Shown here one piece after another: positions 31,114 to 48,689 of a stretch of 64,000 bases of DNA. The stretch's first letter is position 1. Each line of letters starts with the position of its first letter. The DNA is taken from positions 744,001-808,000 of the forward strand of contig NZ_QLLN01000002.1 of the NCBI RefSeq assembly GCF_003259375.1. The letters are read 5' to 3'. This stretch comes from Arenibacter echinorum. GTDB lineage: Bacteria; Bacteroidota; Bacteroidia; Flavobacteriales; Flavobacteriaceae. The notes beneath the pieces are model-generated. The model saw nothing but the letters and a program-made list of their open reading frames with translations. It was not told the origin of the DNA and searched no databases. A program made the position numbers and the translations under genes.

Positions 31114-31197
31114 ATGCGATTAATTTGATATGTTAACGTTTTTAACATATTGGGCCATAACCCATAATTAAGTATCATTTAAAAAAATTGTAGCAAC

Positions 31198-33669: not shown

Positions 33670-33692
33670 ATGGCTTATAGAGCCTAGTTGAG

Positions 33693-33736
33693 AAACAAAA
33701 AAATCCCCGAAGAACTCTTCGGGGATTTTTTTGTTT
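33693..33736 (+). terminator. Strong intrinsic terminator after nrdA
   Basis: Twenty-base stem (left arm 33693-33712 ending ATCCCCGAAG, loop AACT, right arm from 33717 starting CTTCGGGGAT) with flanking A and T runs, so it could act on both strands. It lies 23 bases after the nrdA stop. Confidence 0.93.
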
Positions 33737-34152
33737 ATAGGAAAAGGGAAATATAGAGAATGACTCCTCCCAATTAATATAGATTAAGATATTCCTATCT
33801 ATTGGAGATATAAGGTTTTAGTATAAACGCACATAGGAACGCTATACAATAAATTGCTAGAATTGTGATGTAATTATCCATTTTGCCCCGTATTAAATGC
33901 CTTGTAATTATATACGATGGAAATTTAAAAATGGACTATAATTATCTCAAAAAGAAGAATATAACATGATATACCATTTTCATTTTTTAAAATGATGATG
34001 ATATATTATTCGACCTAGGACGAATAGTATCAAGTAAATCGCTATGGTGTAAAAATAAAGTTCCATCTTGTTTCTTTGACGGGGAAACAAGATGGAAACT
34101 TTCTAAATGCAACGTTAAATTAGCGGCATTAAAGCCTTAAAAGGAATTTCGA
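33737..34152. other. Intergenic region nrdA / TIM-barrel gene
   Basis: About 416 bases between convergent genes. It holds a 20-base palindrome with one mismatched pair (34007-34026, centre CCTAGG) and a 14-base-stem hairpin (34061-34097). No coding frame or known RNA was recognised. Confidence 0.4.
34056..34097 (-). terminator. Intrinsic terminator after TIM-barrel gene
   Basis: Perfect 14-base stem (TTCCATCTTGTTTC / GAAACAAGATGGAA at 34061-34074 and 34084-34097) with a nine-base loop. On the minus strand it is followed by CTTTATTTTT. It lies 56 bases after the stop of the gene at 34153. Confidence 0.75.
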
Positions 34153-35067
34153 CTATAAAAAATTGTCTTCTGATTTATAGGCATTTATTACGGCCATTTC
34201 ACCTTCTTTGTCCGGTCTGGAATTACCGTGTTCCATGCCCAGAACGCCTTTAAATCCTTTACTGTGTATATACTTGAATACATTTTTGTAATTAATTTCT
34301 CCCGTAGTTGGCTCTTTTCTGCCTGGATTGTCCCCTATTTGTATATAGTCGATCTCATCCCATGTAAGTTCCATATTGTGGATTAAATGCCCTTCGGTTT
34401 TCTGCATATGGTAGATGTCGAACAATATTTTGCAGGATGGACTGTCCACGCCTTTACAGATCATATAGGTCTGATCGGAATTTTGCAAATACAGATCGGG
34501 AGAGTCGGATAAGGGTTCAAGTACCATTACCAAACCGTGGGGTTCCAAAATTTCTGCTCCCCTTTTTAAAGCTTCAATAACATTGCCATCCTGAATACCG
34601 ATAGGCAGCTTCCTTTCGAACCCACCGGGCACTACGGTCATCCATTTGGCATTGACACGTTTGGCCACCTCTACGGCTCTCTTACATCCGTCCAAAAAGA
34701 TATCAATGTACTCCTGTTTACCTGCAGCTAAGGTGTTGGCCATGTTGCCTCCCTTGTCTATCACAAAAACACCCATGGTCATACCACGTTTAGCCAAGGT
34801 TTCGCCAATTTTGGTTTGGGTTGCCACATCCCTTCCCATCATCCCGTTATCTTCAAAGGCCGTAAACCCTTGGTCGGCCATGAAGTTTATCTGGTCAATA
34901 AGATCTTCGCCTGCAAGATTTTTGAACATTCCAAAATGAGGGGCGTATTTTAAGTTGAACGTATGTTTCGTATCTATGTTAGTGTTGGCCCCATAGGCTA
35001 AAGAACCTCCTAAGGTAACCGCACCGCTGGTTAGGGCAGTTTTTTGTATAAAATCTCTTCTTTTCAT
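34153..35067 (-). CDS. Tat-exported sugar phosphate isomerase/epimerase-like TIM barrel
   Basis: 304 residues of the AP-endonuclease-2/xylose-isomerase-like fold. The N terminus is a twin-arginine signal (MKRRDFIQKTALTSGAV), so export in folded form to the periplasm is predicted. Candidate metal ligands are E in MVLEPLSDSP, D and H in LFDIYHMQ, and E in GVLGMEHGNS. It resembles hydroxypyruvate-isomerase-like members. In related pathways such barrels eliminate or hydrate 3-keto sugars; that activity is inferred from the adjacent GMC oxidoreductase genes. It is downstream of the GMC/subunit-3 pair on the same strand with a 111-base gap. Confidence 0.85.
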   Translation of the reverse strand: MKRRDFIQKTALTSGAVTLGGSLAYGANTNIDTKHTFNLKYAPHFGMFKNLAGEDLIDQINFMADQGFTAFEDNGMMGRDVATQTKIGETLAKRGMTMGVFVIDKGGNMANTLAAGKQEYIDIFLDGCKRAVEVAKRVNAKWMTVVPGGFERKLPIGIQDGNVIEALKRGAEILEPHGLVMVLEPLSDSPDLYLQNSDQTYMICKGVDSPSCKILFDIYHMQKTEGHLIHNMELTWDEIDYIQIGDNPGRKEPTTGEINYKNVFKYIHSKGFKGVLGMEHGNSRPDKEGEMAVINAYKSEDNFL

Positions 35068-35178
35068 TTTTTGGATATGGTTGGAATATTTTAATAAAAC
35101 AATGCTAAAAGAACCGAAATGCCTTTGGCTATCACAGTCCTTTTAGCTTTTTCTCAGATTTTTGATAACTGTAATTAT

Positions 35179-35826
35179 TTATAGGGACCAAACTTTTCCC
35201 CCGGTCAATTCCTGAAGGTCTCCGCAGGCGATAAATTCACCTGGTACTGGCAAATAGGGCAATACATTTTCTCCTACAAACTCGGATGATTTATAGCCCC
35301 AGATTGCCAGACCTCTTAAATTATTGGCGAAGGCAAATCTTGACACATCATCATCCAAGGTGGCTGTTTGACCAGTCTTAACGGCTTCAGTATATGAATT
35401 TATTACCTTAAAGTTTTTGGCTTGATCCGCTTTGGAAATTTTAAGGGCACTGGCAAGGACCGGTTCCAAATCTTCGGGGGTCAGGTCTGCAATTTCCTTT
35501 TTACCAGAATCCTGCAAGGCCTTGTCCGTAAATTTCCCCATGGTCATCTTTAAAAGATCCTGTTGTTCTTTTTCCATAACCTGATCTGCAAAACGGTCAA
35601 TAAAGATATGGACCTGAACTTCGGACGCTGATGGCGTATCTGTCTTGGGTATTATAATATCAACCAAATGTGTTAGAACAGATCCTTCGGCAGATGTTAA
35701 AAAATCCGGAGTCCATACAATTGCAGCGTCTTTTTTGCAACTTTGGACGATGCTGATCAAGGTTGGGGTGGCTACAGTGTATCCTAATGCCAGCCCCATA
35801 TTCTTTAGTGCTTTTCTTCTATCCAT
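35179..35826 (-). CDS. Gluconate 2-dehydrogenase subunit 3 family protein
   Basis: 215 residues. The N terminus carries a twin-arginine-like start (DRRKALKNMGLALG), a hydrophobic stretch and then a cysteine in a lipobox-like position (LISIVQSCKKD), so a Tat-exported lipoprotein is plausible. The family is the small subunit of flavin (GMC) sugar and alcohol dehydrogenases; it is known to carry the signal that co-exports the signal-less GMC subunit. Its ATG overlaps the stop of the GMC gene by one base, which strongly supports a two-subunit enzyme. Confidence 0.87.
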   Translation of the reverse strand: MDRRKALKNMGLALGYTVATPTLISIVQSCKKDAAIVWTPDFLTSAEGSVLTHLVDIIIPKTDTPSASEVQVHIFIDRFADQVMEKEQQDLLKMTMGKFTDKALQDSGKKEIADLTPEDLEPVLASALKISKADQAKNFKVINSYTEAVKTGQTATLDDDVSRFAFANNLRGLAIWGYKSSEFVGENVLPYLPVPGEFIACGDLQELTGGKVWSL

Positions 35827-37538
35827 TATATATTTCCTTTTTTAAGTTCTTTTACCGCATGGTCGGCGGCCCTGGCAGTGAAGGCCATGTAAGTCAATGA
35901 TGGGTTAACACAACTGGCCGAAGTCATAAATGCCCCATCGGTAACATAAACATTGGGTACATCGTGTAATTGATTGTTGCCGTTGAGTACGGAGGTTTTT
36001 CTGTTGCGTCCCATTCTGGCCGTACCCATTTCGTGTATGCCCAGTCCTAAACCGGTTGGGCCATCATGTCCTTTAACATCGCGCAATCCAGCTTTTTCCA
36101 ACATTTCTACAGCAGATTCCTGCATGTCCTTACGCATGTTGAATTCGTTTTCCTGCAAATCGGCGTCAAAGGTTACCGTGGGTAATCCCCAACCATCCAA
36201 TTTGTCGTAATCCAAGGTCATTCTGTTATCTTCGTAAGGGAGTACTTCCCCAAAACCACCAATTCCCATTCTCCAACCTCCTGGTTTAAGTATATTTTCC
36301 TTAAATTCTTTTCCGTAAGAGAGCTCTGCAACCGTTTCTTCCCAATTGCCTCTGCTGGCTCCACCCTGATAACCAAAGCCACGCTTGTAATCTTTTCTAT
36401 CGGAAGCACCACCTAGGTTCCTAAATCTTGGAATATATATTCCATTAGGTCTTCGGCCTTTGTAATATTTGTCTTCGTAACCATCAAATTTACCGGAAGC
36501 ACCAACTCCAAGATGGTGGTCCATAATATTACGTCCCAATTGATCGGAGTCGTTGCCCATCCCATTTGGGAACCTATCAGATTTGGATTGCATTAGAATA
36601 GAGGTCGACGCTATGGCCGAGGCACACAAGAAAATTACCTTTGCTTTAAATTCATGTGTTTCCTTGGTCAACCTGTCTATAACCTTTACCCCAGTAGCCT
36701 TCTTGGTATTGGGATCGTACATTACTTCATGTACAATGGAGTCCGTACGCAACGTCATATTTCCTGTTGCTTCCGCAGCGGGGAGGGTAGATGATAAACT
36801 ACTAAAATAGCCTCCAAAAGGACATCCCCTGATACATCTATTTCTGTATTGACATTTGGTACGTCCGTCAAAATTTTTGGTCCCCGTAATATGGGCAACC
36901 CGGCCTATGGTAACGGCACGGTCGTCAAAGCCTTCAGTCACTTTGTTCTTAAAATGTTCTTCTACACAATTCATTTCCATGGCCGGTAGAAAATCGCTAT
37001 CGGGCAATTGCGGTAAGTTGAGTGCCTCCCCACTAACGCCGATAAAATCTTCCACTTTTGAATACCATGGGGCAATATCCTTATAGCGCACCGGCCAATC
37101 AACTGCAATTCCATCCTTTAGGTTAGCCGTAAAATCGATGTCGCTCCAACGATAACTTTGTCGTCCCCATGTTAGGGAACGCCCACCTAAATGGTAACCT
37201 CTCATCCAATCAAATCTTCTTATTTCATTATATGGATGTTCCAGATCATTAACAAACCACATTTTGCTTGCCGCATTGGTAGTATATCCCGTTCTATTCT
37301 GTTTAGGCTGTTTTTCAATATCTTCCCTAGTAGGTTCACCAGCATTCGGTAAATCCCAAGGATCTAGATTGGCCGTCTCGTAGTCTTCGATGTGTTTTAC
37401 CATTCTTCCACGTTCCAGAACTAGGGTTTTGAGTCCTTTTTCACATAATTCTTTGGCGGCCCATCCTCCGCTAATGCCGGTACCTACGACAATTGCATCA
37501 TAAGAATCCTGCACTTCATTGTTATTGAACTTGCTCAT
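35826..37538 (-). CDS. GMC-family flavin oxidoreductase (with subunit 3)
   Basis: 570-residue catalytic subunit. FAD-binding motif VVGTGISGGWAAKEL at the N terminus, C-terminal GMC signature HEMGTARMG and NPSLTYMAFTARAA. A CX5CX3C motif (C229, C235, C239; CQYRNRCIRGCP) could hold an Fe-S cluster, as in FAD glucose dehydrogenases; that is inference. It has no signal peptide and would be exported with its subunit-3 partner, whose start overlaps its stop. Likely reaction: oxidation of a sugar or glycoside hydroxyl, probably C3, with electrons passed to a respiratory carrier. It is clearly paralogous to the gene at 42116. It diverges from the lipoprotein TIM-barrel gene across a palindrome-bearing region. 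Confidence 0.92.
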   Translation of the reverse strand: MSKFNNNEVQDSYDAIVVGTGISGGWAAKELCEKGLKTLVLERGRMVKHIEDYETANLDPWDLPNAGEPTREDIEKQPKQNRTGYTTNAASKMWFVNDLEHPYNEIRRFDWMRGYHLGGRSLTWGRQSYRWSDIDFTANLKDGIAVDWPVRYKDIAPWYSKVEDFIGVSGEALNLPQLPDSDFLPAMEMNCVEEHFKNKVTEGFDDRAVTIGRVAHITGTKNFDGRTKCQYRNRCIRGCPFGGYFSSLSSTLPAAEATGNMTLRTDSIVHEVMYDPNTKKATGVKVIDRLTKETHEFKAKVIFLCASAIASTSILMQSKSDRFPNGMGNDSDQLGRNIMDHHLGVGASGKFDGYEDKYYKGRRPNGIYIPRFRNLGGASDRKDYKRGFGYQGGASRGNWEETVAELSYGKEFKENILKPGGWRMGIGGFGEVLPYEDNRMTLDYDKLDGWGLPTVTFDADLQENEFNMRKDMQESAVEMLEKAGLRDVKGHDGPTGLGLGIHEMGTARMGRNRKTSVLNGNNQLHDVPNVYVTDGAFMTSASCVNPSLTYMAFTARAADHAVKELKKGNI

Positions 37539-37621
37539 TTATGAAATTGTTTATTTAATAAATATATTAAATATAAAATTAATTTTTTACATTTAAACCC
37601 TATATATATTAATACTATGAC

Positions 37622-37637
37622 ACTATAACGTTATAGT
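37622..37637. promoter_or_regulatory. Perfect 16-base palindrome in divergent promoter region
   Basis: ACTATAAC/GTTATAGT with a central CG, located between the GMC gene (start 37538) and the lipoprotein TIM-barrel gene (start 37675). A CG-centred palindrome is typical of LacI-family operators. It would be placed to control both divergent transcripts. The regulator is unknown and not encoded nearby. Confidence 0.5.
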
Positions 37638-37674
37638 AATTGTTAATTCTTGGATTTAATCTCAAAACTTAAAA

Positions 37675-38664
37675 ATGAATCAAAAAAATTTAAAAACCAA
37701 AGGGATCAAGGTGGTTTTGGTTGCCTTGTTAATGGGTGTGCTGTCTTGTAAAGAAGCCCCTAAGGAGCAGCCCAAAGATGTGGATACCGCTGAAGCAACC
37801 ATGAAAGCCAAGGAACCTTTTTTTAAATTGTCATTGGCCCAATGGTCCATTCATAAAATGATACGTGAAGATGGAGTTGATCCCTATACATTTGCGGAAA
37901 AGGCCAAGAAGTGGGGATTTACTGGACTGGAGTATGTAAGTCAATTATATAACCCGGAGTTGGAAAAGGCCAACTATTCGGAGGAGGCAATGGCTGCTTT
38001 TGTTGAGAAATCAAATGCGGAAGCAAAAAAGTATGGGTTAGAAAATGTGTTGATTATGATCGACGGCCAAGGGAATTTGGCCGTAAGTGATGAGAAAGAG
38101 AGAAATGAAACTGTAGAAAAGCACAAGCGTTGGGTAGACGCTGCTGCGGCAATGGGATGCCATGCAATTCGGGTAAACCTGAACGGAAGTAGTGTACCCG
38201 AGGAATGGAAAGTGAATGCTGTGGACGGACTTACCAAGTTGGCAACTTATGCCAAAGGCAAGAACATTAATGTTTTGGTCGAAAACCATGGGGGATTGTC
38301 TTCCAACGGTGTATTACATGCAGAAGTGATGAAAGCTGTAAATATGGATAATTGTGGAAGCCTTCCTGATTTTGGAAATTTCTGTATTACCAGATCCAAG
38401 GATGGCTGTGCCGAGGAATACGACAATTATAAAGGCATAGCGGAATTAATGCCATATGCCAAGGCGGTAAGTGCTAAATCCCACGATTTTGATGCAGAGG
38501 GCAATGAAACTAAATTGGATTATCCCAGAATACTCAAAATAGTTAAGGATGCTGGTTATACCGGCTTCATAGGTGTGGAATACGAAGGTAGTATTTTGAG
38601 TGAGGAGCAAGGAATAATTGCTACTAGGGATTTATTGATAAAAGCTGGTAAGGAACTTAATTAG
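37675..38664 (+). CDS. Lipoprotein sugar phosphate isomerase/epimerase-like TIM barrel
   Basis: 329 residues. A lipoprotein signal (VVLVALLMGVLSCKEAP) is followed by an acidic linker and the AP-endonuclease-2-like barrel. Candidate metal ligands: E and H in VLVENHGGLSS, D in LPDFGNF, H in AKSHDFDA and E in GVEYEGSI. It is first of a run of four same-strand genes (DinB, MFS transporter, Gfo/Idh/MocA) with gaps of 11, 16 and 18 bases, so an operon is likely. Its probable role is acting on a keto-sugar in the periplasm; isomerase activity on a phosphate sugar is unlikely outside the cytoplasm. Confidence 0.87.
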   Translation: MNQKNLKTKGIKVVLVALLMGVLSCKEAPKEQPKDVDTAEATMKAKEPFFKLSLAQWSIHKMIREDGVDPYTFAEKAKKWGFTGLEYVSQLYNPELEKANYSEEAMAAFVEKSNAEAKKYGLENVLIMIDGQGNLAVSDEKERNETVEKHKRWVDAAAAMGCHAIRVNLNGSSVPEEWKVNAVDGLTKLATYAKGKNINVLVENHGGLSSNGVLHAEVMKAVNMDNCGSLPDFGNFCITRSKDGCAEEYDNYKGIAELMPYAKAVSAKSHDFDAEGNETKLDYPRILKIVKDAGYTGFIGVEYEGSILSEEQGIIATRDLLIKAGKELN

Positions 38665-38675
38665 CATTATATTTT

Positions 38676-39119
38676 ATGAAGGCTTTTTTCAATCAGCTGT
38701 TCGATTATAACTTTTACTGCAATAAGAAATTGATTGAAGAGTGCCAAAAGCTGGAGAATGTTCCAGAAAGGACTACTGAGCTCTTCAGTCATATACTAAA
38801 TGCGCACCATATATGGAATGCCAGAATTCTTGGTAAAAAAGTGGAATACGGTGTATTTCAGTTACAATCGTTAAAAGATTGGGGCGACTTGCATTATGAA
38901 AATCAAAGAAGCTCTTTTGAAATAATCACCAATGTGGATAGTTTTGAAAAGCGCTTGGATTACGAGAATACCCAGGGAAGGTTGTTTACCAATACTATTC
39001 AGGATATGTTATTTCATATCATTAACCATTCAACCCATCACAGAGCCCAGATTTCAGTTGATTTTAGAAACAACTCCATTGAACCCCTGGTTTTTGATTA
39101 TGCAACTTATAAGCGATAA
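38676..39119 (+). CDS. DinB-family protein
   Basis: 147 residues, a four-helix-bundle DinB/YfiT-type protein. The three metal-binding histidine positions are visible: HILNAHHIWNARIL near residue 45 and HIINHSTHHRAQIS near residue 115. Members bind a divalent metal and include thiol transferases, but most are uncharacterised. It is second in the operon, 11 bases after the lipoprotein TIM barrel. Its presence in a sugar operon is not explained. Confidence 0.83.
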   Translation: MKAFFNQLFDYNFYCNKKLIEECQKLENVPERTTELFSHILNAHHIWNARILGKKVEYGVFQLQSLKDWGDLHYENQRSSFEIITNVDSFEKRLDYENTQGRLFTNTIQDMLFHIINHSTHHRAQISVDFRNNSIEPLVFDYATYKR

Positions 39120-39135
39120 ACACACCTGCTAGACC

Positions 39136-40365
39136 GTGAATATAAAGACCAAAGTTCAGTTGTCCTTTATGATGTTCCTCGAATTTTTTATTTGGGGAGG
39201 TTGGTTTGTAACACTAGGCACTTTTTTGGGACAGAATCTCAAAGCCACGGGGGCAGAATCGGCAATGGCATATTCAACCCAATCCTGGGGAGCCATAATT
39301 GCACCGTTTATAATAGGTTTAATAGCGGACAGATATTTCAACGCGGAGCGCATTTTGGGAGTACTTCATCTTTTGGGTGCGGTTATGATGTATCAAATGT
39401 ATATGGCCGTTGACTTTGCTGGTTTCTACCCCTATGTACTTGGATACATGATTCTCTATATGCCAACTTTGGCCTTGGTGAATTCAATCTCCTTTAGCCA
39501 AATGAAAAATCCTGCTAAGGAGTTTTCTTTTGTGAGGGTTTTTGGTACTATTGGTTGGATAGTGGCCGGACTAATAATTAGTTTTGTGTTCCTATGGGAT
39601 TCCGAAAGCTCAAGGGAACAAGGCCTTTTGAAAAATACTTTTTTAATGGTGGCTATTGCATCAGCTGTTATGGGGATTTTTAGTTTTACTTTGCCCAAAA
39701 CACCTCCCAAGGTTAAAACGGATGAAAAGGTATCCATTTCAGACATTTTGGGGTTGGATGCCCTAAAACTCTTAAAGGATAGGAATTTCCTTATTTTCTT
39801 TCTCTCATCTATTTTAATTTGCATTCCATTAGCCTTTTATTACCAGAATGCCAATCCTTTTTTGTCAGAGATCGGAATGGAAAATCCCACAGGTAAAATG
39901 ACCATTGGCCAGGGTTCGGAAGTTTTGTTTATGTTGTTGTTGCCATATTTCTTTAAGAAATTTGGATTTAAAAACACCTTGATTTTCGGTATGTTGGCTT
40001 GGACCATTCGATATTTCCTATTTGCTTACGGAAATGCCGGAGATTTGGCCTTTATGCTAATATTGGGGATTGCGCTACACGGTATTTGTTATGATTTTTT
40101 CTTTGTTTCCGGACAGATTTATACGGATTCAAAGGCAGGGGACAAATTTAAAAGTGCGGCCCAGGGGTTGATAACCTTGGCCACCTATGGTGTTGGAATG
40201 TTGATCGGGTTTTGGGTGGCCGGAAAAATAACGGATAGTTATATAATTGGCGAAGGTGTACACAGCTGGAAAGATATTTGGACATTTCCTGCTATTTTTG
40301 CTTTAGGGGCAATGGTGCTGTTTGCAATATTTTTTAAAAGCGAAGAAGTAGAGTATAAAGAGTAA
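39136..40365 (+). CDS. MFS transporter, nucleoside-permease (NupG-like) type
   Basis: 409 residues with about twelve membrane segments. The N terminus LSFMMFLEFFIWGGWFVTLG and the loop LIADRYFNAERILGVLHLLG are typical of the nucleoside:proton symporter branch of the MFS in Bacteroidota. Given its position between a periplasmic TIM barrel and a cytoplasmic Gfo/Idh/MocA oxidoreductase, import of a sugar or keto-sugar is more likely here than nucleoside transport; that is inference. The start codon is GTG at 39136; the gap to the next gene is 18 bases. Confidence 0.87.
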   Translation: MNIKTKVQLSFMMFLEFFIWGGWFVTLGTFLGQNLKATGAESAMAYSTQSWGAIIAPFIIGLIADRYFNAERILGVLHLLGAVMMYQMYMAVDFAGFYPYVLGYMILYMPTLALVNSISFSQMKNPAKEFSFVRVFGTIGWIVAGLIISFVFLWDSESSREQGLLKNTFLMVAIASAVMGIFSFTLPKTPPKVKTDEKVSISDILGLDALKLLKDRNFLIFFLSSILICIPLAFYYQNANPFLSEIGMENPTGKMTIGQGSEVLFMLLLPYFFKKFGFKNTLIFGMLAWTIRYFLFAYGNAGDLAFMLILGIALHGICYDFFFVSGQIYTDSKAGDKFKSAAQGLITLATYGVGMLIGFWVAGKITDSYIIGEGVHSWKDIWTFPAIFALGAMVLFAIFFKSEEVEYKE

Positions 40366-40383
40366 CTTAGGAATAAATAAATT

Positions 40384-41520
40384 ATGAGCAAGAAAATTAG
40401 ATTAGGAATTTTAGGAGGTGGAGGAGACTCCCTTATAGGGGTGTTGCACAGAGTGGCATCGCAGATTAATGATAATTACGAAATTGTTGGTGCAGTTTTC
40501 AACCCAGATTTTGAGGCAAATGTTGCTTTTGCCAAGGAAATAGATGTTCCTACCAATAGGATCTATAAGGATTTTGATACCTTGGTGGAAGAGGAATTGA
40601 AACTTCCAAAGACAGAACGTATACAGGTATGTTCTGTGCTTACCCCAAACTTTTTGCATTTTCCTATGGCAAAAAAGTTGTTGGAAAATGGGTTTCACGT
40701 AATTTGTGAAAAGCCCATGACCACCACCTACGAGGAGGCTAAAATATTGCAGGCTACCTTGGAAAAGGCCAAGACCGTTTTTGCGGTTACCCATACATAT
40801 ACGGGATATCCTATGGTAAGGCAAATGAGGGAAATGATTAAGGCAGGTGCTATTGGGAAAATACATAAGGTGGATGCACAGTATTATCAAGGGTGGATCA
40901 ACTCCATTATCCATGACAAGGCCAAACGTTCAACCGTTTGGAGATTGGATCCTAAAAAGGCCGGTATCAGTTCCTGTATGGGAGATATAGGGGTGCACGC
41001 CTTTAATATGATCGAATATACTACGGGATTGACCATAAAATCAATTTTGGCAGATTTCAACTATTTGTACGAGGATAACCAAATGGATGTAGACGGTACG
41101 GTATTGATCCGTATGGACAAACACGTGAAAGGGGTTATTCGTTCAAGTCAGGTTGCTACCGGAGAGGAGAACGGATTGTCAATTGCCATTTATGGCGAGA
41201 AGGGCGGACTAAGATGGGAGCAGGAAAATCCCAATTACCTTTATGTGCTTAGCGATGACAAACCGCTTCAGGTGTATAAGCCGGGCCATGCCTATAATTC
41301 CAAGTTGTCCCTAAATGGAACTAAATTGCCTCCAGGACATCCCGAAGGTATTTTTGATTCTATGGCCAATATTTATTTGGGTGTTGCAAGGGCCATTCGC
41401 GGAGAGAAATATAACGATGGGGAATTCCCTACCATGATGGATGGTGTTCGTGGGCTCGATTTTATAGAGAGCACAGTTGAGTCCAACAAAAAGGGCAATG
41501 TTTGGATCAATTTAAAATAA
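40384..41520 (+). CDS. Gfo/Idh/MocA-family NAD(P) oxidoreductase
   Basis: 378-residue cytoplasmic enzyme. Rossmann motif GILGGGGDSLIGVLH at the N terminus, and the catalytic lysine in the family motif CEKPMTTTYEEA. The C-terminal domain includes GDIGVHAFNMIEY, with the conserved histidine. Known relatives oxidise or reduce sugar hydroxyls, including reduction of 3-keto-glucose to glucose in levoglucosan breakdown. Here reduction of an imported keto-sugar is inferred. It is last of the four-gene operon and is followed by a bidirectional terminator. Confidence 0.92.
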   Translation: MSKKIRLGILGGGGDSLIGVLHRVASQINDNYEIVGAVFNPDFEANVAFAKEIDVPTNRIYKDFDTLVEEELKLPKTERIQVCSVLTPNFLHFPMAKKLLENGFHVICEKPMTTTYEEAKILQATLEKAKTVFAVTHTYTGYPMVRQMREMIKAGAIGKIHKVDAQYYQGWINSIIHDKAKRSTVWRLDPKKAGISSCMGDIGVHAFNMIEYTTGLTIKSILADFNYLYEDNQMDVDGTVLIRMDKHVKGVIRSSQVATGEENGLSIAIYGEKGGLRWEQENPNYLYVLSDDKPLQVYKPGHAYNSKLSLNGTKLPPGHPEGIFDSMANIYLGVARAIRGEKYNDGEFPTMMDGVRGLDFIESTVESNKKGNVWINLK

Positions 41521-41539
41521 CACAGGATATAGTGTAATA

Positions 41540-41565
41540 AAAAGGGCCGCAATTGCGGCCCTTTT
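41540..41565. terminator. Bidirectional intrinsic terminator
   Basis: Eleven-base perfect stem AAAAGGGCCGC/GCGGCCCTTTT with a four-base loop AATT. The arms supply A and T tracts for both directions. It separates the convergent Gfo/Idh/MocA and ASCH genes. Confidence 0.92.
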
Positions 41566-41592
41566 CTATGGAAGTTGTTTAAGTCCTTAAGA

Positions 41593-42054
41593 CTATCCGT
41601 AAACCTTGTCAAATTCAACACAGACCACGATCATACTATCACGGGGCACACGTTTAAAAGGTGCCAATTCACGTAAAAAATAATCCCAGTGGAATTTTTT
41701 CCAATGTTCCAGACTTTTATCCCCTAAGCCGTCCAATAGTACATACTCTTTGGTAATACTAAAAAATGGCTTCAGTTTTACAGCAGTTGTCCTAACGATA
41801 CATTTTGAATTGCCATTCCAATCGGTAAGGACTGTAAAAGCTCCTATTTTAGGCAGTGGTTCCTTGCGGTTTTGAAGTCCCAAAAGGGAAAATGTCGCAG
41901 CTTTCTTAAGGTTTTTAAGCACTAGATCCACTCCGTGGTCCGCATCTTCTTCATTGTCACTGAAATGAATCACTTTAGGTGCTTTTTCAAAAGCAAATTC
42001 CAAGTGGGCGTCCAAAAAATCACCCCACATATTTCTAGCCGAAGCATTGTCCAT
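41593..42054 (-). CDS. ASCH-domain protein
   Basis: 153 residues, full-length match to the bacterial ASCH-domain group (FEKAPKVIHFSDNEEDAD, TFSLLGLQNRKEPLPKIG, TDWNGNSKCIVRTTAV, and the C-terminal SMIVVCVEFDKVY). ASCH domains are PUA-like and are thought to bind RNA; some act as N4-acetylcytidine amidohydrolases. The function here is unknown. It follows the second GMC gene by 61 bases on the same strand, where a subunit-3 gene might have been expected. Confidence 0.82.
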   Translation of the reverse strand: MDNASARNMWGDFLDAHLEFAFEKAPKVIHFSDNEEDADHGVDLVLKNLKKAATFSLLGLQNRKEPLPKIGAFTVLTDWNGNSKCIVRTTAVKLKPFFSITKEYVLLDGLGDKSLEHWKKFHWDYFLRELAPFKRVPRDSMIVVCVEFDKVYG

Positions 42055-42115
42055 TCTAATTAGGTCTAATATTTAACAGTAACGGTAAAATACATTAATT
42101 ATTTCTCGAATGATG

Positions 42116-43819
42116 TTATGAAAATTTACCGTCTTTCAATTGTTTGGCAGCATGATTTGCAGCCCTGGCCGTAAAAGCCATATAAGTCAATGACGGATTT
42201 ACACAATTGGAGGAGGTCATAAATGCACCATCGGTGACATATACATTGGGAACCAGATGCACTTGATTATTTTTATTCAAGATTGAAGTTTTGGGATCAT
42301 GCCCCATACGGGCGCCGCCCATTTCATGTATTCCCAATCCTGGATAGGAAGATTCCTCATAGGATTGTACATCCTTAAATCCTGCCGCTTCAAACATTTC
42401 TATAATAACTTTTATGATATCCTTGCGCATATTCATCTCGTTTTCCTTGAACTCAACGTCAAAGGCCAATTGTGGAAGCCCCCATTTATCTTTTTCAGTA
42501 GGGCTTAATGTAACCCTGTTGTCGTCATATGGCAGGAATTCTCCAAATCCGGTAACACCGATAGTCCAATGACCGGGCTTTAGAATACTTTCTTTGAGTT
42601 CTTTACCGAATCCCAACTCCCCAATATTTTCTGACCAATCGCCTCTACTGGCCGTGCCTTGAAATCCGAATCCACGAACATAGTCATTACGCTTGGTCTT
42701 TTCATCCATATTTACGAATCGGGGAATATAAAAACCATTGGCGCGGCGACCTTTATAATATTTATCCAAATACCCATCTACTTTGGCAGTTGCCCCTAAT
42801 TTATAATGATGATCCATGATACCTCTACCTAAGGCATCCGAGTCATTTCCGAGACCGTTGGGAAAGCGTTCGCTTTTTGATTGTAATAATATACCAACAG
42901 AAGCCATGGCTGAAGCACAGAGAAAAATTACACGGGCCTTGAACTCCATTTTTTCGTTGGTCTCCGCATCTATGACTCTTACCCCTGTCGCTCTTTTTGT
43001 TTTATCATCATAGATGACTTCGTACACAATGGAATTGGGCCTGAGCGTCATATTACCAGTTCTTTCGGCGGCCGGCAAAGTGGATGAATTGCTGCTAAAA
43101 TAGCCTCCGAAAGGGCAGCCGCGCCAGCATCTATCTCGATTTTGGCACACTCCTCGACCTTCAAAATTTGCATTTGGATCCGTAATGTGTGCAGTCCGGC
43201 CAATGGTCACCAAACGACCATCATCAAATTTTTCTTCGATTGATTTTTGAAAGTCCTCTTCTACACAATTCAATTTCATGGGGGGTTGAAATTTGCCATC
43301 TGGCAATTGTTTTAGCCCGAGGGCTTGACCACTGACCCCTATATATTCTTCAACTTTGTCATACCATGGTGAAATGTCCTTATACCTAATAGGCCAATCA
43401 ACGCTGATGCCTTCTTTTTTATTGGCTTCAAAATCAATATCACTCCAACGATAACTCTGTCTGCCCCATGTTAGAGAACGCCCGCCGACCTGATATCCCC
43501 TTATCCAATCAAATCGTTTGGTTTGAACATAAGGGTGATCCAAATCGTTTACAAAGAAATGCTTGTTGCTCTCATCTGGCGCCCAATTCAACCTACTTTG
43601 TATGTGATATTTTTCTTTATCCGATTTAGATAATTGACCTTTTAAAGGGTAATCCCATGGATCATCGTTCATTGTGGGATAATCCTCGATATGCTTTACC
43701 ATTGGTCCTCTTTCCAGCACCAAAGTCTTTAACCCATTCTCGCAAAGTTCTTTAGCTGCCCAACCTCCACTAATACCGGTACCTACAACAATGGCATCAA
43801 ACATTTCACTCTGATTCAT
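42116..43819 (-). CDS. Second GMC-family flavin oxidoreductase (no subunit-3 neighbour)
   Basis: 567 residues, close paralogue of the GMC protein at 35826, sharing long identical stretches such as VVGTGISGGWAAKELCE, GGRSLTWGRQSYRWSDIDF and CPFGGYFSS. The CX5CX3C motif is conserved (C225, C231, C235; CQNRDRCWRGCP), as are HEMGGARMG and NPSLTYMAFTARAA. It lacks a signal peptide and has no adjacent subunit-3 gene, so it either shares the one at 35179, pairs with a distant one, or stays cytoplasmic. It diverges from the cytoplasmic TIM-barrel gene at 43964. Confidence 0.92.
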   Translation of the reverse strand: MNQSEMFDAIVVGTGISGGWAAKELCENGLKTLVLERGPMVKHIEDYPTMNDDPWDYPLKGQLSKSDKEKYHIQSRLNWAPDESNKHFFVNDLDHPYVQTKRFDWIRGYQVGGRSLTWGRQSYRWSDIDFEANKKEGISVDWPIRYKDISPWYDKVEEYIGVSGQALGLKQLPDGKFQPPMKLNCVEEDFQKSIEEKFDDGRLVTIGRTAHITDPNANFEGRGVCQNRDRCWRGCPFGGYFSSNSSTLPAAERTGNMTLRPNSIVYEVIYDDKTKRATGVRVIDAETNEKMEFKARVIFLCASAMASVGILLQSKSERFPNGLGNDSDALGRGIMDHHYKLGATAKVDGYLDKYYKGRRANGFYIPRFVNMDEKTKRNDYVRGFGFQGTASRGDWSENIGELGFGKELKESILKPGHWTIGVTGFGEFLPYDDNRVTLSPTEKDKWGLPQLAFDVEFKENEMNMRKDIIKVIIEMFEAAGFKDVQSYEESSYPGLGIHEMGGARMGHDPKTSILNKNNQVHLVPNVYVTDGAFMTSSNCVNPSLTYMAFTARAANHAAKQLKDGKFS

Positions 43820-43871
43820 TCTATATTTCTTGTTTTAATTCTGATGCTTTTCCTATATTTATAACTTCGCA

Positions 43872-43892
43872 TTTGTAGGCATAGGCTACAAA
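43872..43892. promoter_or_regulatory. Inverted repeat in divergent promoter region
   Basis: TTTGTAG and CTACAAA arms separated by seven bases, between the second GMC gene and the TIM-barrel gene at 43964. A small dyad AGGAT/ATCCT follows at 43903-43916. This is a candidate operator for both directions; it differs in sequence from the palindrome at 37622. Confidence 0.45.
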
Positions 43893-43963
43893 CATTAAAT
43901 ATAGGATTTTTATCCTGAATGTTAACAAAGGTTATTTTCAATTACAATTAATAAAAAATCAAA

Positions 43964-45016
43964 ATGAAGACAATTAAAGGGCCCGCAGTATTTTTAGCAC
44001 AATTTGTTGATGAAAAAGCACCATTCAATTCATTGGATGGTATGTGTAAATGGGCATCCGATTTAGGATATAAGGGAATACAAATACCTACCTGGGTAAA
44101 TTTTCTTATCGATTTGGATAAAGCTGCTGAGAGTCAGACCTACTGTGATGAATTAAAGGGAAAGATAAATTCCTATGGACTGGAAATTACAGAGCTGTCC
44201 ACACATTTACAAGGACAATTGGTGGCAGTGAACCCCGCCTATGACCTTATGTTTGATAATTTTGCGCCGGATAAAGTGAAGAATAATCCAAAGGCCCGTA
44301 CCGAGTGGGCAATTGATACTGTTAAAAAAGGAGCTACTGCGAGTCGTAGGCTCGGGCTAAAGGCACATGCCACTTTCTCGGGCTCCCTTCTATGGCATAC
44401 CGCCCACCCTTGGCCTCAAAGACCAGCAGGATTGGTGGAAATGGGCTTCGAAGAGTTGGCAAAAAGATGGTTGCCCATCCTAAATCACTTTGATAAGGAA
44501 GGTGTAGATGTATGTTACGAAATACACCCTGGAGAAGATCTTCACGACGGGGATACTTTTGAGCGTTTCTTGGCTGCTACCGGTAACCATAAACGAGTTA
44601 ATATTTTGTACGACCCAAGTCATTTTGTACTTCAGCAGCTGGATTATATTACTTATATAGACCATTACCACGAATTCATAAAATCTTTTCACGTTAAGGA
44701 TTCGGAATTTAACCCAACAGGCAAAAAAGGAGCCTTTGGTGGTTTTAATGATTGGGGTGACCGGGCAGGTAGGTATCGTTCGCTGGGGGATGGACAGATA
44801 GATTTTAAGTCCATCTTTTCTAAACTTACTCAGTACGGCTGTGATGTTTGGGCGGTAATGGAATGGGAATGCTGTATAAAGAGTCCGGAACAAGGAGCTA
44901 GGGAAGGAGCCAAGTTTATCCAGGACCATATTATTGAGGCCACTGAAAAAACCTTTGACGATTTTGCCGGTGCAGCTATAGATAAAGCAGTATTGAAGAA
45001 AATATTAGGACTATAA
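43964..45016 (+). CDS. Cytoplasmic sugar phosphate isomerase/epimerase-like TIM barrel
   Basis: 350 residues, no signal peptide. The xylose-isomerase-like barrel has candidate metal ligands E and H in VCYEIHPGEDLHDG, D and H in ILYDPSHFVLQ, H in SFHVKDSEF and E in AVMEWECC. It starts a same-strand run with two DUF1080 lipoprotein genes and an SdpI gene (gaps 17, 19 and 0 bases, using the preferred DUF1080 start). Within the inferred pathway it could isomerise, hydrate or epimerise a keto-sugar after import. It is the only one of the three barrels in the window without an export signal. Confidence 0.9.
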   Translation: MKTIKGPAVFLAQFVDEKAPFNSLDGMCKWASDLGYKGIQIPTWVNFLIDLDKAAESQTYCDELKGKINSYGLEITELSTHLQGQLVAVNPAYDLMFDNFAPDKVKNNPKARTEWAIDTVKKGATASRRLGLKAHATFSGSLLWHTAHPWPQRPAGLVEMGFEELAKRWLPILNHFDKEGVDVCYEIHPGEDLHDGDTFERFLAATGNHKRVNILYDPSHFVLQQLDYITYIDHYHEFIKSFHVKDSEFNPTGKKGAFGGFNDWGDRAGRYRSLGDGQIDFKSIFSKLTQYGCDVWAVMEWECCIKSPEQGAREGAKFIQDHIIEATEKTFDDFAGAAIDKAVLKKILGL

Positions 45017-45033
45017 AATCAATTAAAAGAGAA

Positions 45034-45816
45034 ATGAAAAAATTAATTTTTAGTGCCCTTATAGCTGTCATGGTTATGGGATGTAAAGAGAAGACAGATA
45101 AAAAAGACATGGACGTGGATTCCGATCCCTTGGCCAACTCCGAAAAAGGAACTCCACCCCCGCCCCCACCAGCTTCAATTGAGGGAGAATGGCAGGTGTT
45201 ATTTGACGGGTCCAATTTCGATGCCTGGAAAAGATATTTGGAAGATGGCGTTGGGGATGCATGGAAGATAGAGGATGGAGCCATGGTATACTACCCGCCA
45301 AAGGAGCGCAAGAAAGGTGAGAAATATAATTTAGTGACCAAGGAAGACTTTACCAATTTTGTACTATCCATAGATTGGAAAATCTCTGAGGGCGGAAATA
45401 GTGGTATTTTTTGGGGTGTTAAGGAAGTGGAAAGTCTTTCTGAAGCCTACCATTCCGGGCCGGAAATACAAGTGTTGGACAATGAAAAACACCCTGACGC
45501 AAAAAATGGACCTGTAAGACAGGCAGGGGCTTTGTATGATATGGTTGGTCCTAGTGAGGATGTTACCAAACCTGTTGGGGAATGGAATACCTGTGTTATC
45601 ACAGTAAACCATAAAACCAACAAGGGAAATGTAGTCCTAAATGGTACGGAAGTGGCTTCTTTTCCAGTTCATGGAGAGGAATGGGAGGCTATGATCGACA
45701 AGTCTAAATTTAAGGGGTCTGAGCATTTTGGAAAATATAAGACTGGAAAAATAGGATTACAGGATCATGGGGACATAGTGTCCTTCAGAAATATTAAGAT
45801 AAAAACATTGGACTAA
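45034..45816 (+). CDS. DUF1080 (3-keto-disaccharide hydrolase) lipoprotein, copy 1
   Basis: 260 residues. A lipoprotein signal (LIFSALIAVMVMGCKEK) precedes a linker containing six consecutive prolines and then one DUF1080 domain of concanavalin-like fold. Family motifs: VLFDGSNFDAW, SEGGNSGIFWG, GPEIQVLDNEKHPD, GEWNTCVITV and the terminal LQDHGDIVSFRNIKI. The family name reflects hydrolysis of 3-keto-glycosides. Position at the outer or inner membrane surface would let it cleave substrate oxidised by the exported GMC enzyme; this link is inferred. Confidence 0.9.
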   Translation: MKKLIFSALIAVMVMGCKEKTDKKDMDVDSDPLANSEKGTPPPPPPASIEGEWQVLFDGSNFDAWKRYLEDGVGDAWKIEDGAMVYYPPKERKKGEKYNLVTKEDFTNFVLSIDWKISEGGNSGIFWGVKEVESLSEAYHSGPEIQVLDNEKHPDAKNGPVRQAGALYDMVGPSEDVTKPVGEWNTCVITVNHKTNKGNVVLNGTEVASFPVHGEEWEAMIDKSKFKGSEHFGKYKTGKIGLQDHGDIVSFRNIKIKTLD

Positions 45817-45835
45817 ATCGTTATTGGATATGCCT

Positions 45836-46666
45836 ATGAAAATGAGATCTATTTATGTCCCGTTAATATTGTTCTTGGCATTTGCGTGCAAGGAAAAAGT
45901 TAAAGTGGATCCGTTGGAGCCAAAAGACACAAAACCAACTGATGAAGTGTTGGTGGTACACGGTGAATACTCCGGTACGGAACCTACTAAACCGGAAGAG
46001 ACCGAATTTTATAAACCGGTGCCCCCAGTAGTAAATCCGCATGATCCCATAAAAAAAGTTCCCTCTGATGCTATTGTGCTTTTTAGCGGGGATAATTTGG
46101 ATAATTGGATAAGTTCAAGAGACAGCACGGCGGCCAAGTGGATCGTGAACAATGATGGAAGTATGACCGTTAACAATAAGACTGGTGATATACAAACGGT
46201 TCAGAATTTTGGAAGTATACAGTTGCATCTGGAATGGAAATCTCCAGCAGAAGTTCAGGGAAAAGGGCAAAGCAGGGGTAATAGCGGGGTCTTTTTAAAT
46301 GGGCTGTACGAGGTTCAGGTCTTGGACAACAATGATAATGACACCTATGTAAACGGACAAGTGGGTTCTATTTACAAGCAGCACGTACCGCTTGCCATGG
46401 CATCTGTGCCCACAGGGGAATGGAATACCTATGACATTATTTATCATGCCCCGGAGTTCAATGATGAAGGGGATAAAATTAAATCGGGAACAGTAACGGT
46501 TATACATAATGGGGTACTGGTTCAGGACAATGTTGAAATTAAGGGAACCACCCCATATATAGGCTGGCCCAAAAACCCGGCCCACGGTAAGGGTCCTTTA
46601 AAGCTTCAGGACCATGGGGACAATAGTAGGGTAAGTTACAGGAACATTTGGGTTAGGGAGCTTTAG
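45836..46666 (+). CDS. DUF1080 lipoprotein, copy 2
   Basis: 276 residues from the preferred ATG at 45836 (others in frame at 45830 and 45842, TTG at 45824). Lipoprotein signal YVPLILFLAFACKEK, a long threonine/proline/glutamate-rich linker, then a divergent DUF1080 domain (IVLFSGDNLDNW, SRGNSGVFLNGLYEVQVLDN, GEWNTYDIIYHAP, LQDHGDNSRVSYRNIWV). It keeps the fold landmarks but differs from copy 1 in loops, suggesting a different aglycone or linkage. The SdpI gene begins directly after its stop. Confidence 0.88.
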   Translation: MKMRSIYVPLILFLAFACKEKVKVDPLEPKDTKPTDEVLVVHGEYSGTEPTKPEETEFYKPVPPVVNPHDPIKKVPSDAIVLFSGDNLDNWISSRDSTAAKWIVNNDGSMTVNNKTGDIQTVQNFGSIQLHLEWKSPAEVQGKGQSRGNSGVFLNGLYEVQVLDNNDNDTYVNGQVGSIYKQHVPLAMASVPTGEWNTYDIIYHAPEFNDEGDKIKSGTVTVIHNGVLVQDNVEIKGTTPYIGWPKNPAHGKGPLKLQDHGDNSRVSYRNIWVREL

Positions 46667-47044
46667 ATGCAATGGGGTTTTTTCTTTGGAGCTACAGCTC
46701 CCGGTCTACTATTAATGATTTTTGGTTGGTACTATAGGGCATTCCCACCCAAAAGGATCAATTTTATATATGGCTATCGCACCTGGAAAAGTATGAGGAA
46801 CCAGGAGACATGGGATTTTGGAAACAAAATTGGAGCCAAAATGATTTTTTATTTGGGCATGTCCACGCTAATAGTAGGTACGGTGGCTTATTTCATTTCC
46901 CCCCCCCCCCCTTGGTCCTTAGGTATTTACGGTTTTTTCTTGGTTGTTGCTGCCTTTGTAGGCATATTTTGGTGCGAACAGCAATTATCGGATAATTTTG
47001 ATAAAAATGGGAGGCGAGTAAATAGCGAGGGCAAACCCGATTAG
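46667..47044 (+). CDS. SdpI-family membrane protein with C13 tract
   Basis: 125 residues with about three membrane helices. The family signature is FIYGYRTWKSMRNQETWDFGNKIG. SdpI of Bacillus gives immunity to a secreted toxin; most homologues have no known toxin partner. Its ATG follows the stop of the second DUF1080 gene without a gap. The reading frame crosses a run of 13 C (46899-46911) that encodes ISPPPPW between the second and third helices. Change of the run by one base would frameshift the last ~45 residues, so switching or a sequencing error are both possible. Confidence 0.83.
   Translation: MQWGFFFGATAPGLLLMIFGWYYRAFPPKRINFIYGYRTWKSMRNQETWDFGNKIGAKMIFYLGMSTLIVGTVAYFISPPPPWSLGIYGFFLVVAAFVGIFWCEQQLSDNFDKNGRRVNSEGKPD
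46899..46911 (+). repeat. Homopolymer run of 13 C in coding sequence
   Basis: Thirteen consecutive cytosines inside the SdpI-family gene. Such tracts are slippage-prone in AT-rich genomes and stand out here as the longest G or C run noticed in the window. Confidence 0.95.
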
Positions 47045-47130
47045 GGAAGTGTTCAATTAAGTATTAAGAGCCTTAATGAATGTCTTTGCACTGTACTTGA
47101 CTATTGAAGAATACAAACCTCAATTTTATT

Positions 47131-47138
47131 TACCTTTG
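47131..47138 (+). promoter_or_regulatory. Putative -7 element of yicC-gmk
   Basis: TACCTTTG fits TAnnTTTG and lies 21 bases before the yicC ATG. A TTG at 47104-47106 is a possible -33 element, with a spacing of 24 bases, slightly long. Confidence 0.5.
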
Positions 47139-47158
47139 ACAAAATTTAAAAATAATTT

Positions 47159-48016
47159 ATGATCCAATCAATGACAGGGTTTGGGAAGCATGTAATACAA
47201 CTTCCATCTAAAAAAATTACCATTGAAATCAAATCCCTCAACAGCAAAAGTCTCGATTTAAACGCTAGAATACCTTCCACCTACAGGGAAAAGGAATTGG
47301 AATTGCGCAGGACTATTGCAGGCTCATTGGTCAGGGGCAAGGTAGATTTTTCACTTTATATTGAAAATACTGGTGCTGAGACCTCTTCGGAGGTAAACGA
47401 AGTAGTGGTAAGGCAATATATGAAGCAGTTGGGACATATTGTTTCCGGGAATGAAATGGGTCTGTTGGAAATCGCAATGCGCATGCCCGATACCATGAAA
47501 ACGGAAAGGGAGGACATTGATGAGGAGGAATATAAGGTTATTAAAGAATCATTGGACGAAGCGCTAAAGGAAATAAATATTTTTAGAACGGAAGAAGGAA
47601 AGGTTTTGGAAGCCGATTTTGAGGCCAGAATAAGCGTTTTAAAGAGTTTATTGGAACAGGTGGCACAAATGGACCCTGATAGACTTCTAACGATAAGGGA
47701 GCGTCTGGAAAAGGCTGTTGCGGACTTAAAAGCCGATCTGGATACAAACCGATTTGAACAAGAGCTTATCTATTATCTTGAGAAATACGACATCACGGAA
47801 GAGAAAGTCCGTTTACTAAATCACCTGGATTATTTTGCCACCACCCTTAAATCGGACGACTCCAATGGTAAGAAGCTGGGTTTTATTAGTCAGGAAATAG
47901 GAAGGGAAATCAATACCATAGGATCCAAGGCAAATTTTGCCCCTATGCAACAGTTGGTGGTGCAGATGAAGGATGAATTGGAAAAGATCAAAGAACAAAT
48001 GCTTAACGTTTTATAA
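47159..48016 (+). CDS. YicC/YloC-family endoribonuclease
   Basis: 285 residues. The N terminus MIQSMTGFGK and the C-terminal half (NRFEQELIYYLEKYDITEE then RLLNHLDYF, GKKLGFISQEIGREINT) are the two YicC domains. E. coli YicC and Bacillus YloC act as endoribonucleases in RNA turnover. The stop overlaps the gmk ATG by one base, and the yicC-gmk pairing is conserved in many bacteria. A -7 element lies just upstream. Confidence 0.93.
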   Translation: MIQSMTGFGKHVIQLPSKKITIEIKSLNSKSLDLNARIPSTYREKELELRRTIAGSLVRGKVDFSLYIENTGAETSSEVNEVVVRQYMKQLGHIVSGNEMGLLEIAMRMPDTMKTEREDIDEEEYKVIKESLDEALKEINIFRTEEGKVLEADFEARISVLKSLLEQVAQMDPDRLLTIRERLEKAVADLKADLDTNRFEQELIYYLEKYDITEEKVRLLNHLDYFATTLKSDDSNGKKLGFISQEIGREINTIGSKANFAPMQQLVVQMKDELEKIKEQMLNVL

Positions 48017-48606: not shown

Positions 48607-48689
48607 GCCGATATTAATCCCTACAAGTCTACTCCGCCAAATTAAAATTAAAATAATTCATTGAAAAATGATGCAGAATCAAGTTTCTC

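Follow-up and report, generated by a model that had tools for sequence, protein, structure and literature searches.

A gene island of Arenibacter echinorum with a predicted non-hydrolytic glycoside pathway split by the inner membrane

The present study dealt with a 64 kb window of the Arenibacter echinorum genome, the term window meaning the whole stretch of DNA that was analyzed, and particularly with an island of 12.5 kb (34153-46666) that carries genes for GMC dehydrogenases, a Gdh3-type subunit (GDH3), three TIM-barrel proteins (TIM1 to TIM3), an MFS protein, a Gfo/Idh/MocA-type oxidoreductase (GFO) and two DUF1080 lipoproteins (DUFa and DUFb). It is likely that this island encodes a non-hydrolytic catabolic pathway for glycosides of the LacABC/GlycDH kind that is divided by the inner membrane. 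In this pathway, GMC1 together with GDH3 would be exported by means of the twin-arginine translocation (Tat) signal of GDH3 and would oxidize a glucoside or galactoside at C3 in the periplasm, where the DUF1080 lipoproteins, perhaps with the help of TIM2, might beta-eliminate the 3-keto-glycoside to the aglycone and 2-hydroxy-3-keto-glucal. The MFS protein would import the latter compound or its hydrated form, cytosolic TIM3 is predicted to hydrate it to 3-keto-glucose, a step backed by strong orthology to a named hydratase, and cytosolic GFO, judged at the family level, would reduce 3-keto-glucose to glucose. The electrons from GMC1 would be passed to a c-type cytochrome encoded elsewhere in the genome. 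The protein families and their arrangement on the DNA, the signals, the synteny and the orthology were observed, whereas activities and substrate are predictions. A glycoside pathway with C3 oxidation had been proposed in a preliminary description of this DNA, and in its broad outline it is supported by the orthology of TIM3 to the PDB entry 8RO4 and by conserved synteny.

Hydratase, reductase and dehydrogenases of the island

The protein TIM3 (43964-45016, plus strand; PF01261) matches 8RO4, which is named 2-hydroxy-3-keto-glucal hydratase, with an E value of 8.6e-163 and 545 bits, 225 of 350 residues (64%) being identical from end to end. We take 8RO4 to be AtHYD of A. tumefaciens from the work of Kastner and colleagues. 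The residues E186, H188, D217, H220, H243, E300 and E302 are identical in both proteins and invariant in 18/18 aligned sequences; judged from the fold family they are putative metal-binding or catalytic residues. Among flavobacterial loci having TIM3 the protein is 76-94% identical. This orthologue-grade match suggests that TIM3 is a 2-hydroxy-3-keto-glucal hydratase, which, having no export signal, would be cytosolic. The GFO protein (40384-41520, plus strand; PF22725/PF01408) carries no signal, matches 3v5n (E 1.1e-89) and represents, by its family, a candidate 3-keto-glucose reductase. The curated model of levoglucosan dehydrogenase (NF052479) gave 97 bits at a cut-off of 650; on this score a levoglucosan route was rejected, and the comparison with levoglucosan breakdown in the preliminary description does not extend to orthology. 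A BT_2158-type route was likewise rejected, GFO reaching 38 of 750 bits on the curated model, and the score on BT_2159 (20 of 650 bits) was also below the cut-off.

The predicted catalytic subunit of the FAD-dependent (FAD, flavin adenine dinucleotide) glycoside 3-dehydrogenase is GMC1 (35826-37538, minus strand; PF05199/PF00732), to which the second GMC dehydrogenase, GMC2 (42116-43819, minus strand; Pfam GMC), is 67% identical (BLASTP 374/560). Cys229, Cys235, Cys239, His502 and Asn545 are invariant in 25/25 aligned sequences including both window enzymes. Among solved structures, the nearest relatives of GMC1 are the large subunit of fructose dehydrogenase and also glucose dehydrogenases. 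In profile alignment, Cys229, Cys235 and Cys239 all meet cysteines of fructose dehydrogenase, which carries a 3Fe-4S cluster, and this correspondence makes it likely that electrons pass from FAD through an iron-sulphur cluster in GMC1 and GMC2. In related dehydrogenases, a Gdh3-type subunit carries the catalytic subunit through the Tat pore. The corresponding protein here is GDH3 (35179-35826, minus strand; PF13618, Gluconate_2-dh3, E 4.3e-28), which has a Tat motif and a lipobox-like Cys30. The exported GMC enzyme of the preliminary description can be kept as a GMC/Gdh3 dehydrogenase that uses the Tat signal of GDH3, yet neither GMC protein has a signal of its own, and no Gdh3 gene adjoins GMC2. 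It may be that GMC2 shares GDH3; one related locus (L058) has two GMC-Gdh3 pairs in tandem. A third GMC protein from this clade, which shares 67% identity with GMC1, is encoded at L019:8282-9982 (G000:C1:744285-745961) among genes for sulfatases, a fusion of sulfatase and alpha-L-rhamnosidase and a protein with a ThuA domain. This setting hints that C3 oxidation may take part in a locus for sulfated polysaccharides.

Regarding the electron acceptor, LacA of the LacABC system is a GMC enzyme and LacB a c-type cytochrome. In relatives of the island, a small monohaem cytochrome adjoins GMC1-GDH3 (translated in L048 and L052), and other relatives show untranslated CxxCH open frames that resemble it in length and position; Hymenobacter also has such a cytochrome. 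Homologues of such a relative's cytochrome are present in the A. echinorum genome at C2:251963 and C5:119940 (49% and 47% identical), in addition to a third, weak match (33%). The first homologue lies in a candidate second 3-keto locus (L110:3508-10421, G000:C2) that contains a LacI-type regulator, DUF6807, a Gfo protein and a protein of 460 amino acids with two DUF1080 domains. Its cytochrome c, located past an alpha/beta hydrolase, is homologous to the cytochrome beside GMC1 in relatives, and its Gfo protein finds its best NCBIfam match in BT_2158 with 89 of 750 bits, far below the cut-off.

Recurrence among relatives and on plasmids

The genome of 5.19 Mb (24 contigs) has 6 GMC1, 4 Gdh3, 22 PF01261, 44 PF01408 and 26 PF06439 matches. 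Under independent random placement, the joint Poisson probability of the family combination in one stretch of 12.5 kb is ~10^-14, or ~10^-11 when position is roughly allowed for. Because real families cluster, conserved synteny is better evidence than this figure. Named genome records were scanned with GMC1, and the best 80 of at least 590 loci were evaluated, 52 of them with full flanks (~10 kb). In these 52 loci GDH3 occurred 50 times, TIM2 and GFO 39 times each, TIM3 37 times and MFS 32 times, followed by DUFa-like (26), DUFb-like (22), DinB and ASCH (15 each), GMC2 (14) and TIM1 (12) genes; the counts for GFO, DUFa, DUFb and TIM1 take in family members at only ~26-44% identity, and a few of the genes labelled GMC2 (L058, L101) may be different paralogues. 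GDH3, GFO and TIM3 were found together beside GMC1 in 37/52 loci, and among these 37, TIM2 was present in 35, a DUF1080 gene in 34 and MFS in 30. The genes yicC or nrdA lay within the fetched stretch in 21 of the 37 core loci; therefore, the island is at the same chromosomal place there and looks vertically inherited in those genomes. Most loci from Saprospiraceae, Balneolaceae, Cytophagales and similar groups showed GMC1 and usually GDH3, the rest not being seen and some contigs being short. The DinB and ASCH genes each occurred in 12/14 full-flank loci with GMC2 compared with 3/38 without it.

An even sample of 149 genomes from the same family, the window's own genome included, gave a similar linkage. 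The hydratase of the TIM3 type was found in 71 genomes and the GMC1 type in 77, with both in 69, hydratase only in 2, GMC only in 8 and neither in 70 (Fisher p ~2e-30, relatedness ignored). Both genes were situated within 16 kb in 62/69 genomes, counting any GMC1-type paralogue, GMC2 too, as a link; a dropped GMC1 fragment (166 residues, 74%) on the hydratase's contig in G103 would raise this number to 63/69. Seven hydratase matches at E 5.2e-6 or weaker had been dropped, among them the sole match of G072 (72 to 71 genomes), as had a 73-residue fragment in G049. GMC matches weaker than 1.4e-151 had also been dropped, which reduced the genomes from 90 to 77, the matches listed reaching down to ~1e-73. 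Co-occurrence of the families in related genomes, on which the preliminary description had made its proposal depend, was thus observed.

Relatives were also found on plasmids by tblastn, with TIM3 relatives in 353 and GMC1 relatives in 611 records. Five plasmid regions, hand-picked from the best matches, were inspected, for some of them with neighbours examined within 9 kb. A Pseudoalteromonas plasmid carries consecutively Gfo-hydratase-MFS-DUF1080-GMC-Gdh3-TIM barrel, a plasmid of Hymenobacter (Bacteroidota) GMC-Gdh3-nucleoside permease-Gfo-hydratase-cytochrome c-TIM-TIM-DUF1080, and plasmids of Ketogulonicigenium and Croceicoccus have hydratase, Gfo, GMC and Gdh3, so that related clusters are found on proteobacterial plasmids as well as on that of Hymenobacter. 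Across the five regions the hydratase is 65-69% and GFO 32-41% identical to the island proteins, and the annotated nucleoside permease of Hymenobacter is 58% identical to the island MFS protein. These sequences point to a constant core of hydratase and reductase, usually with a GMC enzyme, to which a varying transporter and a varying cleaving enzyme are added.

Compartments, cleavage and competing explanations

Signals were scored by a Tat-motif/lipobox rule in those loci whose assigned open frame was intact (e.g. 44 of the 80 loci for TIM3). A Tat motif was present in 73/73 GDH3 and 23/23 TIM1 relatives, four of the latter being only 24-31% identical, and a lipobox in 45/54 TIM2, 30/35 DUFa and 17/22 DUFb relatives, with a lipobox-like Cys in 67/73 GDH3 relatives. 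Such motifs were absent or rare for TIM3 (0/44), GFO (0/51), GMC2 (0/22) and GMC1 (2/77). In the window itself, lipobox-like signals were seen on DUFa, DUFb, TIM2 and GDH3. This distribution indicates that the pathway is probably split by the inner membrane. It supports DUF1080 proteins at the surface, as suggested before, or in the periplasm, and agrees with the earlier placement of the Gfo/Idh/MocA-type reductase in the cytosol. Of the TIM barrels formerly placed in the periplasm as cleaving enzymes, TIM1 and TIM2 carry export signals, and TIM3 is a signal-less hydratase.

With cleavage outside and hydration inside, the elimination product would have to cross the inner membrane. The candidate importer for a keto-sugar or keto-glucal is the MFS protein (39136-40365, plus strand), whose best Pfam match is PF03825 (Nuc_H_symport, E 4.8e-117), i.e. 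the nucleoside:H+ symporter family, and whose gene is located between TIM2 and GFO, where the DinB gene is also found. Import by this protein had been suggested before and is retained as a candidate role; the imported compound, however, is less likely a 3-keto-glycoside than a product of its cleavage (2-hydroxy-3-keto-glucal or 3-keto-glucose), because a hydratase without a signal, such as TIM3, is not expected to cleave in the periplasm. On a more tentative reading, there would be an importer dedicated to an unsaturated keto-sugar.

Both DUF1080 lipoproteins are candidates for the cleavage step, DUFa (45034-45816, plus strand; PF06439/DUF1080, E 3.6e-48) as 3-keto-glycoside lyase or hydrolase and DUFb (45824-46666, plus strand; PF06439/DUF1080, E 2.3e-37) as the second protein of this family. 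Their PF06439 scores of 164.5 and 129.3 bits, respectively, compare with a curated cut-off of 26.8, and DUFb matches 4qhz with E 1e-75. In an alignment of 25 DUFa-like and DUFb-like sequences, N122, E144, Q146, Q243 and H245 do not vary. The characterised 3-ketotrehalose hydrolase BT2157 belongs to the DUF1080 family (PMC9007349; here and below, statements with a PMC number refer to the available parts of the respective paper). All 26 DUF1080 matches of the genome are above the curated cut-off, and two neighbouring ones on contig C5 fall in frames of 1,136 amino acids that by their coordinates are one frame.

The lipoprotein TIM2 (37675-38664, plus strand; PF01261, E 2e-26) is a candidate periplasmic 3-keto-sugar enzyme. 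Its predicted structure (pLDDT 89.8) is closest to 4ovx (Z 41.5, titled by domain only), followed by the Art22 isomerase, an epimerase-like protein and C-glycoside deglycosidases; the CGE chains reach Z 24-27, and Art22 and ketose epimerases match equally well or better. His205 on strand 5 is invariant in 32/32 sequences and aligns with His143 of PuCGE (profile alignment with 7bvr/7exz, numbered by hand), which has been named as catalytic base (PMC10628242). It does not single out eliminases, because TIM3 has the same E-x-H motif. The third TIM barrel, TIM1 (34153-35067, minus strand; PF01261, E 3.4e-29), is of the hydroxypyruvate-isomerase/ketose-epimerase type with a Tat signal. Its best NCBIfam match, TIGR03234, is well below the cut-off (109 of 353 bits), E184, D217, Q243 and E279 are invariant in 18/18 aligned sequences, and it is the gene least often kept among relatives.

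Several observations weigh against the proposed pathway. In TIM2, Ser266 is invariant in 32/32 sequences at the place of the expected third metal-ligand His (His189 of AtOGE, whose H189A variant retained <0.1% activity; PMC10628242). It aligns with His of 7bvr and, in a weak alignment (E 0.08), with His243 of TIM3; position 270, close by, is occupied by His in just 9/32 sequences, and 4ovx likewise has Ser at the third metal-ligand position in profile alignment, so that the TIM2 family possibly has a distinct metal site. Since the third metal ligand is this invariant Ser266, TIM2 is better not classed with the AtOGE-type eliminases. Simple orthology of TIM2 to AtOGE was considered and appears doubtful; besides the Ser, the fold searches list epimerases along with C-glycoside deglycosidases, and 8BVK was not among the matches listed in the sequence and fold searches (the best 50 in each fold search). 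With respect to electron transfer, no CxxCH open frame of at least 80 amino acids, as expected for a LacB-like cytochrome c, was found in the 64 kb window. The signal rule was home-made and took the place of a trained predictor, and fewer lipoboxes had been counted with a simpler version of it. In the family sample, two of the 71 hydratase-bearing genomes were without a strong GMC match, and in seven of 69 genomes hydratase and GMC were on different contigs. On the plasmids, no annotated DUF1080 gene was found within 9 kb in the Ketogulonicigenium and Croceicoccus clusters, and a Phyllobacterium plasmid combines hydratase and Gfo with genes for an ABC transporter, no GMC gene being located within 9 kb. 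The identity to GMC1 in the four GMC-bearing regions ranges from as low as 31% (Pseudoalteromonas) to 58% (Hymenobacter), tblastn gave no match to the island MFS protein in the Pseudoalteromonas region, and for TIM2 none of the counterparts listed in the five regions had an alignment exceeding 54 residues. Finally, DUF1080 proteins that hydrolyse or hydrate in the periplasm may make a cytosolic hydratase redundant.

Accordingly, it is possible, if somewhat doubtful, that the DUF1080 lipoproteins hydrolyse the substrate, or eliminate and hydrate, fully in the periplasm, that free 3-keto-glucose is imported, and that TIM3 merely rescues leaked or spontaneously formed glucal. Such an explanation can draw on the treatment of DUF1080 as 3-keto-disaccharide hydrolase (PMC9007349) and on a B. 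thetaiotaomicron lyase deficient in hydration (PMC13273386), but the good conservation of TIM3 and its tight linkage to GMC genes would be unlikely for a mere rescue enzyme. An island for the oxidation of cyclitols or rare sugars, in which GMC enzymes would oxidize polyols of the inositol-like or amino-sugar type and the TIM barrels would act as isomerases or inosose dehydratases, appears quite improbable. TIM3 does match the IolE model and IolE 3cny, TIM1 matches hydroxypyruvate isomerase, and the transporter is of the nucleoside-symporter type; however, the NCBIfam matches are far under their cut-offs (59 of 290 bits for IolE, and the TIGR03234 score given above), compared with the bit score on 8RO4, and DUF1080 is linked to 3-keto-disaccharides. 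An inositol route was rejected on these curated-model scores. Least credible is an incomplete oxidation by GMC/Gdh3 that yields respiratory energy in the manner of acetic acid bacteria, with separate neighbouring genes, which would suit the fructose and glucose dehydrogenases as nearest solved relatives but not the linkage of GMC to hydratase, Gfo and DUF1080 across genera and phyla.

Island layout and comparison with known systems

Open reading frames and Pfam searches gave twelve genes in the island. The ten genes of named families listed in the preliminary description were all confirmed, with exact start and end coordinates; a DinB-family gene (38676-39119, plus strand; PF05163, E 4.1e-12) and an ASCH-domain gene (41593-42054, minus strand; PF04266, E 1.4e-12) had been missed, both of which are probably passengers. 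At the right edge, directly 3' of DUFb, follows an SdpI-family gene (46667-47044, plus strand; PF13630, E 9.7e-14), whose membership in the system is doubtful; it was assigned in 1/106 loci only, and the coordinates suggest that this locus is most likely the one of the window itself (L001). GMC1 and GDH3 overlap by one base, and TIM1 lies 111 bases past GDH3, all on the minus strand. Divergent from GMC1, the plus-strand genes TIM2, DinB, MFS and GFO are separated by 11-18 bases, and TIM3, DUFa and DUFb, also on the plus strand, by 17 and 7 bases, while ASCH and GMC2 are on the minus strand. Promoter and terminator consensus sequences showed no clear excess in 33600-47200 (39 vs 37.2 and 15 vs 13.8 in shuffled sequence); therefore, operon boundaries are not claimed from them. 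The island is flanked by ribonucleotide reductase genes (30001-33669) and by yicC, gmk and nadD (47159-49277), these names resting on sequence reading rather than a family search. Upstream of the ribonucleotide reductase genes, Pfam detected a hybrid two-component regulator (25345-29379) with propeller, kinase, receiver and AraC-type helix-turn-helix domains.

Nothing marks the island as mobile: Rfam gave no hit above threshold in 33600-47200, no tRNA was found in the window, and megablast gave no plasmid match to 34000-47200. The statement that no classical glycoside hydrolase is present agrees with the Pfam search, in which PF06439 was the only glycoside-hydrolase family among the island proteins. 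The island can, however, not be called self-contained, as had been suggested, given the missing cytochrome c in the window and the lack of outer-membrane importer or regulator families among the island genes in Pfam. On the tentative reading with a dedicated keto-sugar importer, perhaps as many as half of the family's sampled genera (69/149 genomes with hydratase and GMC) would remove the aglycone outside the cell with no need for glycoside hydrolases. If the proposed pathway is right, many flavobacteria would have a hydrolase-free glycoside route that surveys based on glycoside hydrolases miss. Moreover, a testable step would be assigned to widely conserved genes with vague annotations such as 'sugar phosphate isomerase', 'GMC family oxidoreductase' or 'nucleoside permease'.

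Among known systems, the BT2156-BT2159 pathway of B. thetaiotaomicron (Nasseri 2024) reportedly starts with an oxidation by Gfo/Idh-type enzymes. It resembles the predicted pathway in that a DUF1080 protein (BT2157) cleaves 3-keto-glycosides, and differs in the first oxidation, which NCBIfam names also give as Gfo/Idh-type, the island GFO being far below the BT_2158 and BT_2159 cut-offs. Levoglucosan catabolism of the LgdA type has an analogous order of steps via a 3-keto intermediate, with GFO below the dehydrogenase cut-off. The Agrobacterium operon combines oxidation by the flavoenzyme GlycDH, beta-elimination by the TIM-barrel protein AtOGE, hydration by AtHYD, for which preliminary evidence is given, and reduction by Gfo (PMC10628242), and C-glycosides undergo the same steps of oxidation, beta-elimination, hydration and reduction (PMC13273386). 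The clustering of FAD glycoside dehydrogenase, TIM-barrel hydratase and Gfo reductase is shared, and the same four-step chemistry is predicted here; in contrast to that operon, no clear AtOGE orthologue was found, and the island adds DUF1080 lipoproteins, an MFS importer, a second GMC enzyme and several export signals. Lactose use by Caulobacter involves LacABC and DUF1080, as supported by fitness data, and genes for a transporter, a sugar reductase and two epimerases are located nearby, and LacABC-like clusters also occur in Bacteroidota, e.g. Indibacter (PMC9007349). The island likewise combines GMC, DUF1080, transporter, two epimerase-like proteins and reductase, with dehydrogenase and DUF1080 predicted in the periplasm, and it has the GMC gene with adjacent Gdh3 and the nearby DUF1080 gene with export signal that define LacABC/GlycDH-type systems, but it lacks the LacB-like cytochrome c and contains two GMC and two DUF1080 genes. 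In the related genus Zobellia, AA3 'clade A' proteins, also GMC enzymes, were proposed as FAD-glycoside oxidoreductases at 53-58% identity to characterised ones, in a paper whose available parts concern AA3 enzymes and not a cluster (PMC6950322). A literature search, with subscription journals mostly outside its coverage, found no description of the present locus. Hence, the oxidative alternative raised in the preliminary description is not new in kind, as such pathways are already published (PMC9007349, PMC10628242, PMC6950322), and the cell-envelope layout predicted for A. echinorum is a useful variation of them.

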